This document shows, piece by piece, positions 61,062 to 64,000 of a DNA stretch of 64,000 nucleotides. The notes under the pieces were generated by a model that did no database searches, was not told the DNA's origin, and saw nothing but the letters and a program-made list of their open reading frames with translations. Positions within the stretch are counted from its first letter, which is position 1; each line of letters begins with the position of its first letter. The translations under genes were made by a program, and so were the position numbers. The stretch comes from Bremerella sp. P1 (lineage in GTDB: Bacteria > Planctomycetota > Planctomycetia > Pirellulales > Pirellulaceae): assembly GCF_028748185.1 (NCBI RefSeq), contig NZ_CP118164.1, positions 3,993,814-4,057,813 of the forward strand, written 5' to 3'.

Positions 61062-61201
61062 GAGAGAAGCTCCGTATATTGGATGGGTTTGTTTGGGTGA
61101 GGCAGGTGGAAGAGTGTTTATCCTAACTTGCCAAACCACGCGAGGCAATTCGCCAGGAAGTTGTTTGGCTATTGCACGATGGGTTGGCTAGACTGACACC
61201 C

Positions 61202-61978
61202 ATGGAAGCACCGCCCCCCTTCGAGAACGATCACTATTCGCCACCGCCAAGCGAACCAGAACCCAACCCTGAAACGCCGCCGCGCAAGTGGTACCGTTTC
61301 ACGCTGTGGAAGATGGTCGTCACGTTCGTGCTGCTGGGCGTGATCTTCGCTTACTTGCGTTATACGCACTGGGGTTATGTACTGTCGGAAAACATTACGC
61401 GAGTTGGCCGCAGCTTTGGGTTGGTCGAACAGAGGGATCCGAACAAGATCTATGTCTCGGCGGTTCGCCCACTGGGGAATGATGATTGGGAATGGAGCAT
61501 CAAGATTCCTCCAAGCGAGATTTATATCGTGTGCTACAGCGTTGCTGATATTCCTGTCTCCGGCAAAATAGAAGAAGTCGTTGTTCGCAGTGGGGAGGTA
61601 CATCGGGAACACGACTATTTGCTTCACTTTTACGTTGAAACGCTTTCGGAGAACTCACAGGTTGGCCTCGGCAAGGCCGTTCAGAAAAACAGCGGGATAT
61701 TACCACAACAGTTCTACGGGACTTCGTGGAGTGCCGTCGGGGATCTCGATTGGATGAACGGATACGTCGATCGAATTGCTATCGAGTCAGGTGATGGCGA
61801 GCACGTATTCAATGTCGGTGAGAAGATCGTCTTGCTACGCCAATGGCCTGTGGATTCGACTCCGCGTGATGGACCTGGTGCCGTTCATAAAGAGGGCATC
61901 ATGATCTGGATCGAGCCAGCCCCGGTCGGAGGACCTTGGGACAAGTATCGAACATCATCGACACCCACTTCCAACTAA
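61202..61978 (+). CDS. WIEP-family single-pass membrane protein (array member 1)
   Basis: 258 residues from ATG at 61202 (TTG at 61172 is in frame). A Pro-rich N-terminus (EPNPETPPRKWYRF) precedes one transmembrane helix (MVVTFVLLGVIFAYLRY). The extracytoplasmic domain begins DPNKIYVSAVRPLGNDDWEWSIKIP and ends IMIWIEPAP. The same plan and the same closing WIEP are found in the two complete proteins downstream. I know of no named family. It is the first gene of a compact same-strand array that reaches the window edge. Confidence 0.7.
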   Translation: MEAPPPFENDHYSPPPSEPEPNPETPPRKWYRFTLWKMVVTFVLLGVIFAYLRYTHWGYVLSENITRVGRSFGLVEQRDPNKIYVSAVRPLGNDDWEWSIKIPPSEIYIVCYSVADIPVSGKIEEVVVRSGEVHREHDYLLHFYVETLSENSQVGLGKAVQKNSGILPQQFYGTSWSAVGDLDWMNGYVDRIAIESGDGEHVFNVGEKIVLLRQWPVDSTPRDGPGAVHKEGIMIWIEPAPVGGPWDKYRTSSTPTSN

Positions 61979-61987
61979 CGACCTGCA

Positions 61988-62236
61988 ATGGAAAACGAGA
62001 ACTACGAAGACGACCGGCCGTTTTTCGATTGGATCGATGATCTTCTGGACCACGGTGCTCTGTCTCGGCCTGACCCTGGGAAACGCCGGAGCAGGCATGC
62101 TGTTGATGTGGTACGGCGAGAAGTGAACGAGCCCGTTAGCTTCTGTCCCATTCGCGGCGACCGCTGTTTCTTAGCCCCCCATTGCAAGTCGTACGAGATT
62201 GCAAAAAGAATGGCCATGGCCTCTGGCGTGGGGTAG
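61988..62236 (+). CDS. Small ORF in the WIEP array, possibly frameshifted membrane protein
   Basis: 82 residues beginning MENENYEDDRPFFDWIDD, 9 nt after the previous stop. The rest of this frame looks unlike a protein (LLDHGALSRPDPGKRRSRH). In the next frame an ATG at 62037 opens MIFWTTVLCLGLTLGNAGAG and MLLMWYGEK, a convincing transmembrane helix of 29 residues ending at 62126. The acidic N-terminus and the helix would make one sensible small membrane protein if the frame shifted near 62035. It may be a decayed gene, a real frameshift, or two small overlapping genes. Confidence 0.35.
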   Translation: MENENYEDDRPFFDWIDDLLDHGALSRPDPGKRRSRHAVDVVRREVNEPVSFCPIRGDRCFLAPHCKSYEIAKRMAMASGVG

Positions 62237-62296
62237 ACTGCCCCCCATGACACAGCAGTACCTCTTCCAAGATTACGTCGAAGCTCTCGTTAGACG

Positions 62297-63070
62297 ATGA
62301 ACAACGATCCCCTTTCCCAAGTCGATCAAGCAAAGCCTAGTCCACCAGCGAAGGAACGGCACAAGCCGCAGCACCTCTTTCCGAATGCGTGGAATTTTTC
62401 GTTCAAGACTTTCTTCGTGTTCATGTTTTTCGCAACACTAGCGGCATCGCATGTCTGGACGTCAAAGAAACTTGCCGATGCCGAGAAGCAGTTGCGACGG
62501 GTACGCAACGACTATCATCTGCTTAATGTTCAAGATTCCAGTCAGATCTATCTTACGATGCTGGCGAGCAATCCACCCTATTACTTTCAGTGGCGAGTCT
62601 CCTTGCCAACGGGACGCGACTACCAGTTTTGTCTTGCTCGGGCCATCGATCACGTCGGGAATGACCAGGCATCAACGTGGAAGGTTCCCCTTCAGCCAGG
62701 TACGGGTGTGCTGACCCTGCGGATTCTCGAGAGGGCAAACGATCAGTATCAGGGAGAACTAACCGTTGACTGGGAAGAATTTGGATCTGGATTCGCGCCA
62801 ACACGCAGGGTGGTGACCCAAAACTTCAAACAAGACCGAGGCATCCTGTCCCAGGGGTATTGGAAATTCATCAAACGTGTTACTTCGGAGTCAGAAGACG
62901 AGGCCGGGAAGCAATATCGCATTATCAACATTGATCGGATAGCGAGAGAATACCAGGGACCTTATTCTCCGACCAAAGAAGCGAACCTCGTTTCAATGGG
63001 GTTCTCCGGGGGTACTTATGAAGCCGACAGCATGTCTGCCTGGATTGAACCAGTAACCGATGAAAAGTGA
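62297..63070 (+). CDS. WIEP-family single-pass membrane protein (array member 2)
   Basis: 257 residues. A basic N-terminus is followed by one transmembrane helix (FSFKTFFVFMFFATLAASHV), a short coiled coil (KKLADAEKQLRRVRND) and an extracytoplasmic domain beginning DSSQIYLTMLASNPPYYFQW and RVSLPTGRDYQFCLAR and ending MSAWIEPV. It aligns in plan with members 1 and 3: the D-x-x-x-I start, the W/F-R-f-LP-GR-Y block and the WIEP end. Its stop overlaps the next start by 11 nt. Confidence 0.72.
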   Translation: MNNDPLSQVDQAKPSPPAKERHKPQHLFPNAWNFSFKTFFVFMFFATLAASHVWTSKKLADAEKQLRRVRNDYHLLNVQDSSQIYLTMLASNPPYYFQWRVSLPTGRDYQFCLARAIDHVGNDQASTWKVPLQPGTGVLTLRILERANDQYQGELTVDWEEFGSGFAPTRRVVTQNFKQDRGILSQGYWKFIKRVTSESEDEAGKQYRIINIDRIAREYQGPYSPTKEANLVSMGFSGGTYEADSMSAWIEPVTDEK

Positions 63071-63950
63071 GTCGCGAGCGTTGAATGTTACAACCAGTGA
63101 ATCAGGTGACACCATTTCCGCAGCCGAACACCAAAGCGACGCCCGCCCCAGTCGCATGCGTTTCTCGCTCACAACGATGATTGTCACAATCTCGCTCTCT
63201 TGCCTGGTGATGGGCAATATCATCAGTGCAGGCAAATGGTATTACGAAACACGAGCCTTGAAACGCGAACTGGCCATTGCTGAGCGGACAACCGGATACT
63301 TGGTTGTTGATGATCCGACGAAGATTCAGGTCACGAACGTGGGAACTGCGGTCAAAGGACTTTGGCATTTTCGGTTCTATTTGCCCGAGGGACGCAGCTA
63401 TCGGCTCTGTCACCGTGTCGGTGAAATTCCGCGAGATGGACGCCCTAAAAGAGACGCTCGGATCTTTGTCGAGGAATTGGGGCCAGGCTATGTTAATGTG
63501 TCGTTTTGGCTCGAACGTCAGGGACAAACTGAGTGGAGGGTTTATCGGAGGGGATCTTGGGGGCGTGGCGGTTTCTCCACCATGCTAGACACAACATCGA
63601 ACCATTTCACGACACTGGAATGGTTCGATGCTCACCGGATTAGCTTCACTAGTAATGTCTATTACTTTCACCAACAGCAGGATGGAAAGGAAGGCGATGT
63701 TCGCTATTTCCTCGTCGAAAATCAGGGCGTGCACGACACGAGTATGTTAGGTCATAGGAGTTGCGACCCGGACCAGTCGCTCGATCTCATCAAGATACGT
63801 GCGACGGAAATCCCAGCCCCCGTAAGCGAAGCAATCAATACGTATCCTTTCAGGACCGATCCGAAGCCACTCGAAGAAAATAACGAGATACCGGAAATCA
63901 GCGACGGCATTCAGCTATGGATCGAACCAGTGTCCCATGGAAACCAATGA
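63060..63950 (+). CDS. WIEP-family single-pass membrane protein (array member 3)
   Basis: 296 residues. A polar N-terminus, one transmembrane helix (LTTMIVTISLSCLVMGNIIS), a short coiled coil (YYETRALKRELAIAERTTGY) and the domain DPTKIQVTNVGTAVKGLW, HFRFYLPEGRSYRLC, ending IQLWIEPVS. It overlaps member 2 by 11 nt and member 4 by 14 nt, indicating translational coupling. The function is unknown. Membrane anchoring with most of the chain outside the cytoplasm is inferred from the single helix and charge distribution. Confidence 0.72.
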   Translation: MKSESRALNVTTSESGDTISAAEHQSDARPSRMRFSLTTMIVTISLSCLVMGNIISAGKWYYETRALKRELAIAERTTGYLVVDDPTKIQVTNVGTAVKGLWHFRFYLPEGRSYRLCHRVGEIPRDGRPKRDARIFVEELGPGYVNVSFWLERQGQTEWRVYRRGSWGRGGFSTMLDTTSNHFTTLEWFDAHRISFTSNVYYFHQQQDGKEGDVRYFLVENQGVHDTSMLGHRSCDPDQSLDLIKIRATEIPAPVSEAINTYPFRTDPKPLEENNEIPEISDGIQLWIEPVSHGNQ

Positions 63951-64000
63951 GCCACCTACGGAACACGTCGAAACGCAGCCGACCGGCTGCCGTTTCCGTT
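63937..64000 (+). CDS. Start of a further array member (partial)
   Basis: ATG at 63937 overlaps the member 3 stop by 14 nt. The 21 visible residues start METNEPPTEHVETQPTGC and run into an RFR stretch at the window edge. The overlap and polar N-terminus resemble the other members; the rest lies outside the window. Confidence 0.55.
   Translation, partial: METNEPPTEHVETQPTGCRFR

Follow-up and report, generated by a model that had tools for sequence, protein, structure and literature searches.

The 64,000-nucleotide (nt) stretch of the Bremerella sp. P1 genome analyzed here (contig NZ_CP118164.1, positions 3,993,814 to 4,057,813; referred to below as the window) ends within an array of five genes, A to E, that run in the same direction and encode members of an unnamed protein family. 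The window genome, labelled G000, is a single contig of 6.96 Mb, and the last two genes of the array were read by extending past the window end. All five products belong to the subfamily we term type 1; a second subfamily, type 2, is described below. Genomes are designated by G numbers and loci by L numbers. The genes of the array, in window coordinates, are as follows.

61202-61978, + strand: gene A, 258 amino acids (aa), type 1; orthologues in G008 (same neighbourhood) and G003 (elsewhere)
62297-63070, + strand: gene B, 257 aa, type 1; orthologue in G001
63060-63950, + strand: gene C, 296 aa, type 1; overlaps B by 11 nt; has a low-confidence predicted structure
63937-64815, + strand: gene D, 292 aa, type 1; only its start (63937-64000) inside the window; overlaps C by 14 nt
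64812-65585, + strand: gene E, 257 aa, type 1; wholly outside the window; overlaps D by 4 nt

The original prediction for this locus, made from the letters of the window, had given A, B, C and the start of D at exactly these coordinates, with the 11-nt and 14-nt overlaps. Its description of three complete genes and a partial fourth holds within the window, but the array is really one of five, with E lying beyond. It had also described the genes as overlapping and hence translationally coupled. Overlaps are present from B to E, whereas A is separated from B by a gap of 318 nt without overlap and is therefore placed outside the coupled set.

The five proteins share the predicted common plan of a polar N-terminus, a single hydrophobic stretch, a D-x-x-x-[IV] motif, a W/F-x-W/F...P..Y block (weak in A) and a C-terminal W. 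The best Kyte-Doolittle 19-mer of each scored between 1.38 and 2.32, and the second best no higher than 1.03. The hydrophobic segment is followed by a charged stretch in members of the family. The WIEP ending that had been proposed as a hallmark was retained in part: in a 70-member alignment the final W is mostly conserved (58 of 68), but E (36 of 67) and P (35 of 67) are not, and with D ending in WIER and E in WLVP, WIEP is just the local spelling.

A profile built from 65 type-1 members, leaving out the array genes, recovered A to E at E values of 2e-63 to 4e-34, and a profile of the C-terminal domain alone, that is, the part after the transmembrane (TM) helix, recovered them at 1e-45 to 3e-21. 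Neither of these profiles matched any of 2407 reversed open reading frames (ORFs), nor did three others. The 65 members had originally been collected by profiles seeded from A to E, so the leave-out test speaks to mutual homology and is not an independent sample. By these comparisons, A to E are homologues, with more resemblance than chance would give. When all candidates in the genome were scored, six matches were found at E ≤ 1e-5, five being the array and one lying 1.4 Mb away. The ratio of nonsynonymous to synonymous substitution (dN/dS) was 0.14-0.25 in 15 of 18 codon comparisons within orthologous groups, dS being saturated in the other 3, and the neighbouring MFS gene had a lower value of 0.05. 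As judged from these ratios, the array genes are real, selected and fast-evolving, and under purifying selection.

The proposal that the family is undescribed was borne out by the libraries searched. The best matches of A to E were at E 0.002 in Pfam (18.3 bits against a cut-off of 25), 0.041 in NCBIfam and 0.018 in PHROGs, and a sequence search of the PDB gave nothing at E ≤ 1. Among 40 members compared with NCBIfam, the best E values were 0.0004 (ftsL_broad, matched by 3 of the 40 at E ≤ 0.01) and 0.0005 (MdoH, 1 of the 40). Geminivirus movement protein, SURF1, PrgH, MdoH and similar names were discarded as weak matches of a few members each, all of them below the cut-off where one was given. 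No description of the family was found in the titles and opening lines of abstracts of one open-access library, and the passages retrieved from PMC8567305 make no mention of it. No enzyme-like or catalytic motif stood out in the proteins.

Outside the genus of the window, a second subfamily, type 2, was found, whose members are mostly ~195-250 aa long, with a shorter tail and no RFSL motif. Homology between the two types can be detected. Each of the 24 type-2 genes in the fetched loci is followed by a type-1 gene, and in 20 of these pairs the two overlap as called. Many of these loci had been chosen for having two hits, and we therefore searched 100 Pirellulaceae genomes with a type-2 profile. 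Every one of the 26 full-length type-2 places detected (E ≤ 2e-24) has a type-1 gene directly downstream on the same strand; 20 of these places are themselves rows of the profile, selected for two hits, and the six paired places outside its rows are in G453, G463, G494, G499 (twice) and G503 (C33). The one clear type-2 gene within the genus, in G007, is likewise followed by a type-1 gene (507 aa), with an 8-nt overlap. Type-1 genes without an adjoining type-2 hit occupy at least 26 places (E ≤ 1.1e-15) in these 100 genomes. With type 1 found unpaired and type 2 always paired, type 2 would depend on type 1, and not the reverse.

The pair also appears to be transmitted as such. Pairs occur twice in succession in L031, L052 and L081, and in L052 the pair was duplicated as a unit, its two genes being 77% and 81% identical to those of the copy. 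Distances among type-2 proteins correlate with those among their type-1 partners (r = 0.91 over 24 pairs, a value reached in none of 2000 permutations), and in 18 of the 24 both types have the same nearest pair. From these comparisons, the two-gene unit of other genera is inherited as a unit. Some of the type-1 partners are 500-600 aa long, and the extra C-terminal region of the two tested had no Pfam match. Genes encoding AMP-binding, MatE, sulfatase, GFO/IDH, DUF1552 and other proteins neighbour the pairs, and nothing in their context was constant between genera at the loci read. Since the flanking genes vary by genus, a member has no steady partner other than further members, and for that reason the proteins probably act together.

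A strong hydrophobic segment lies within the first 80 residues of 71 of 72 type-1 and all 21 type-2 proteins, and none of them has a second segment above 1.6. Net positive charge is greater on the N-terminal than on the C-terminal side of this segment in 47 of the 72 type-1 proteins. AlphaFold2 was run for gene C and one relative on five-row alignments consisting of the window proteins and L055. Both low-confidence models have one long helix (residues 37-78 in C) followed by beta strands in the same order. As to the fold, which the original prediction had proposed comparing between members, the elements of these two agree in order, at low confidence. We infer a cytoplasmic tail, a TM helix that extends past the membrane, and a beta domain in the periplasm.

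The family is mainly one of the Pirellulales. A search with gene D matched 18 of 60 genomes, its own included, and 4 of these belong to the order Pirellulales outside Pirellulaceae. A 40-row profile matched all nine genomes of the genus (G002, which is 68% complete, over 46 codons only) and, of 100 Pirellulaceae genomes, at least 42, including three from the genus; with at most 27 candidates scored per genome, this is a lower bound. Across the phylum, at least 10 of 392 genomes matched, the window genome and its genus included, and 2 of these lie outside Pirellulaceae; this too is a lower bound, with 7 candidates scored per genome. A narrower alignment run against a collection of genome contigs returned 80 stretches that yielded one confirmed locus, L055, in a Pirellulales metagenome-assembled genome with two tandem members. 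Among viral contigs there were 57 pattern matches, none of them a relative.

Tandem arrays also occur in relatives, as the original prediction had suggested might be found: type-1 genes lie in tandem, less than 150 nt apart, in six of the eight genus genomes examined in detail (G000, G001, G003, G006, G007 and G008). The other two are G004, with two members 4.2 kb apart, and G005, with one member. L041, L046 and L055, which lie outside the genus, also carry type-1 pairs with no type 2. The array site lies between SMP-30-like and MFS/TetR genes in G000, G001 and G006; in G003, G004, G007 and G008 the array is near some of the same genes, with others interposed or missing. In the window genome, a convergent MFS transporter gene ends just within the 3' end of E, and on the 5' side is a divergent gene whose product we take, from its sequence, to be an SMP-30-like protein.

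Orthologous groups were drawn from a tree of 42 rows from the genus. The A group comprises G000, G008 and G003; the B group, G000 and G001; the D group, G000, G001, G004, G006 and G008; and the E group, G000, G001, G006 and G008. C stands alone or is weakly grouped with one G008 gene (82/80, two long branches), and one further group, absent from the window genome, is found in G006 and G001 only. Wherever D and E are both present, in four genomes, they are adjacent, in reversed order in G008. A broken member, in pieces of 92 and 150 aa, is present in G007 (L045). Because orthologues of A, D and E each occur in other species, the duplications are older than these species, in agreement with the original prediction. 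Its companion claim, that selection keeps the array, was not supported: the genes are under purifying selection, but membership turns over, with B in two genomes, D in five and E in four. Judged from the tree and gene content, the history of the array is one of birth and death of members rather than of whole-array preservation.

In three genomes of the genus, G007 (L044), G008 (L025) and G001 (L050), a multi-TM protein of 487-493 aa ends at its C-terminus in a type-1 module. These genes adjoin genes of one cluster, and the one cluster gene tested encodes a BD-FAE-type esterase. The nearest relative, L053 in G005, is without the multi-TM part.

The gap between A and B and the regions before their start codons hold four further features.

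61988-62126, + strand: remnant X, a start codon and polar N-terminus, a frame break, then an RFSIGSMIFW... hydrophobic stretch and a stop
61189-61194, + strand: TAGACT, a -10-like box 7 nt before the ATG of A; possible leaderless start
62234-62239, + strand: TAGACT, a -10-like box before B; in G001 it directly precedes the ATG of B
62247-62300, + strand: putative upstream ORF of 17 codons whose stop overlaps the start of B (ATGA); absent in G001

At the same place just before B, G001 has an unbroken 58-codon ORF with the family N-terminus and hydrophobic segment and then a stop. In the window copy, the start and the hydrophobic segment are out of frame, and 38 alignment columns are lacking. 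Scored alone, remnant X was insignificant with the family profile (E 0.17); we assign it to the family because of its position, its RFSI motif and its DNA match to G001 (blastn, 80% over 80 nt, E 1e-14). The stop follows the hydrophobic stretch at the matching place in both genomes, and thus the short form predates the break. Remnant X may be a short sixth member that is dead in both genomes or a mini-protein alive in G001 and dead in the window.

The 17-codon upstream ORF sits between the -10-like box and B. The same box precedes the starts of the B gene of L036 (7230-7242), the A orthologue of L038 (just before 4019) and L045, and TAGACT, TAAACT, TACACT or TAAGCT was found 6-8 nt before start codons. 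In the sequences scanned, this spacing applied to 6 of 47 TAGACT, 8 of 66 TAAGCT and 120 of all 3737 TANNNT occurrences, part of them counted twice where the window and L002 overlap. The pattern suggests that leaderless transcripts are common in the genus.

Upstream of a family member in four genomes of the genus lies a gene for a protein of ~650 aa, at the following places.

L037, 7036-8994: ~650-aa upstream gene
L038, 14168-16108: ~650-aa upstream gene
L039, 8164-10125: ~650-aa upstream gene
L045, 7484-9436: ~650-aa upstream gene

The gene (652 aa) ends 36 nt upstream of the member in G004, G007 and G008 and overlaps it by 1 nt, as called, in G003. By eye, its product has a hydrophobic stretch at the N-terminus and the motif FDQSESM, which is VWA-like, and the one tested had no Pfam match. 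It was rejected as an obligatory partner: the G001 copy has no adjoining member, and the 56% homologue in the window genome is 0.66 Mb away. Another tandem array, of a multi-TM-looking protein of ~270 aa, was seen at L040 (10488-14026) and L043 (18-5029), with 4 copies in G003 and 3 in G007, one of them of 1053 aa; the one tested had no Pfam match at E ≤ 0.01. Downstream of the A to E array, an ORF (L002, 13935-15776) presumably encodes a serine/threonine kinase-like protein with a macro-domain-like C-terminal part.

The original prediction had suggested a hetero-oligomeric membrane complex, and the type 2-type 1 gene pair outside the genus lends this indirect support. We give about an even chance to the reading that the proteins are bitopic, sit in the inner membrane with a beta domain in the periplasm and work as hetero-oligomers. 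A to E would then be type-1 members of a mainly Pirellulales family of such proteins, each having a short, usually positive cytoplasmic tail, a TM helix running on into a membrane-proximal helix of ~20 residues, and a periplasmic all-beta domain. Type 2 and type 1 may form a heteromer in which the TM and juxtamembrane helices make the contact and the beta domains lie next to each other. In the genus of the window, duplicated type-1 proteins could take both parts, and the gene order suggests that B to E, made together, would enter mixed complexes whose make-up varies between species. The complex is proposed from gene order, and its task is most likely that of a scaffold or of ligand sensing at the cell envelope, which is the least demanding guess. 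More specifically, but improbably, the type 2-type 1 unit would be the core of an undescribed Pirellulales envelope complex, a lineage-specific scaffold for division, secretion or envelope bridging, and in the genus of the window, duplication of type 1 and, in most species, loss of type 2 would have turned it into a multi-subunit version of variable make-up.

Several observations weigh against the hetero-oligomeric reading. Type 1 often occurs alone and so, by its distribution, can work without type 2. Co-expression alone can produce the overlaps and co-inheritance, and common ancestry would by itself make the distances of type 2 and type 1 correlate, whether or not the proteins touch. At most 29 candidates were scored per genome in the type-2 search, and it is within that number that a lone type 2 was detectable. 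Two further places fall short of a full pair: the type-2 hit in G016 (C400) runs into the end of its contig and is ambiguous in type (48.2 against 47.4 bits), and G472 (C58) holds just two overlapping 67-aa pieces, one per type, which in sequence looks like a decayed pair. Topology by charge is mixed, with 14 of the 72 type-1 proteins opposed and, among the 21 of type 2, 8 for and 6 against. The models are weak, with mean predicted local distance difference test (pLDDT) values of 51.8 for gene C and 55.1 for the relative, and a Foldseek search of both against the PDB gave no match at E ≤ 0.001, the top names being treated as noise; for these reasons, the beta domain can only be guessed from the pattern of strands.

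The proteins might instead act singly, as rapidly diversifying envelope proteins that bind, for example, varied ligands or phage or predator molecules, with the array a nursery of copies made by unequal crossing-over and co-transcribed without any complex. The turnover of members between species, the broken copies in the A-B gap and in G007, the many unpaired type-1 genes and an evolution faster than that of the MFS gene would all fit such a history. A nursery would not, however, lead one to expect the type 2-type 1 order at 26 of 26 full-length places or the adjacency of D and E in four of four genomes, one of them reversed, and dN/dS values well below 1 also speak against it. We consider this alternative unlikely, though a serious competitor.

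Descent from a known membrane family would account for the layout in other ways. The same arrangement of short tail, TM helix, coil, periplasmic domain and paired genes is known from FtsL/FtsB and PilN/PilO, and A to E could be a coiled-coil family of that kind proper with a diverged periplasmic domain. The ftsL_broad matches point this way, but in the two detailed they cover the TM helix and coil only, and in a rerun of 10 members, in which the one with the best E was not identified, the two that matched scored 15.1 and 17.6 bits, where the cut-off is 42.45. Neither PilN, PilO, DivIC nor FtsL was among the Pfam matches listed for 40 members at E ≤ 0.1, and the Pfam-searched neighbours included no cell-division or pilus genes, making such a relationship highly improbable. 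A link to pilins or pseudopilins, in which the RFSLLTLLLLTTIVAL segment and beta domain would resemble prepilin N-termini and serve in pseudopilus assembly, draws on the look of the N-terminus, on a sub-cut-off GspH match (15.1 bits against 80, in 1 of 10 proteins) and on weak Foldseek hits to an archaeal type IV pilus subunit (probability 0.30) and a minor pilin (0.20). The prepilin motif could be scored in 70 of 87 type-1 members, 17 having no scorable motif, and the residue before F-[ST] is Gly in none of the 70, Ala in 1 and Arg in 43; Glu is at the Glu+5 place in 4. The Pfam prepilin motif was not matched at E ≤ 0.1 among 40 members, whereas a prepilin-like protein of G008 shows the usual prepilin form. 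Failing at both Gly-1 and Glu+5, the prepilin reading was rejected, and we hold it to be barely credible.

By this analysis, a nameless planctomycete family, detected in roughly two fifths of the Pirellulaceae genomes sampled and without a convincing match in the libraries searched, gains a testable unit: a small pair found together wherever full-length type 2 was seen. Should the pair form a complex, it would be easy to express and would open a way into the planctomycete cell envelope, which is poorly understood. The arrays of the genus would then be a natural series of changed subunit make-up.

Among known systems, PSCyt/PSD and DUF1552 are expanded planctomycete families of unknown role; these Pfam families have no sequence match to the present one and are mere neighbours at some loci. 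Type IV prepilins and type II pseudopilins resemble it in placing a beta domain after an F-[ST]-L-rich hydrophobic helix, but differ in the Gly and Glu positions given above. FtsL, FtsB and DivIC (NCBIfam TIGR02209, Pfam DivIC) share the TM helix, charged helix and small tail, whereas the family has a large extra C-terminal domain and multi-copy arrays, and the score obtained, 17.6 bits, is far under the cut-off of 42.45. PilN and PilO form an inner-membrane heterodimer of type IV pili; they are bitopic proteins of adjacent genes, each with a short tail, a TM helix, a coil and a periplasmic domain. The present family differs in lacking a Pfam match to them (E ≤ 0.1 for 40 type-1 and 0.01 for 21 type-2 proteins) and in the detectable homology between its two types; the periplasmic fold of PilN and PilO is ferredoxin-like, and the family models have mainly strands after a long helix (mean pLDDT 52-55). 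The likeness to PilN/PilO lies in the adjacent genes for two bitopic proteins, as in the type 2 to type 1 order seen at 26 of 26 places.

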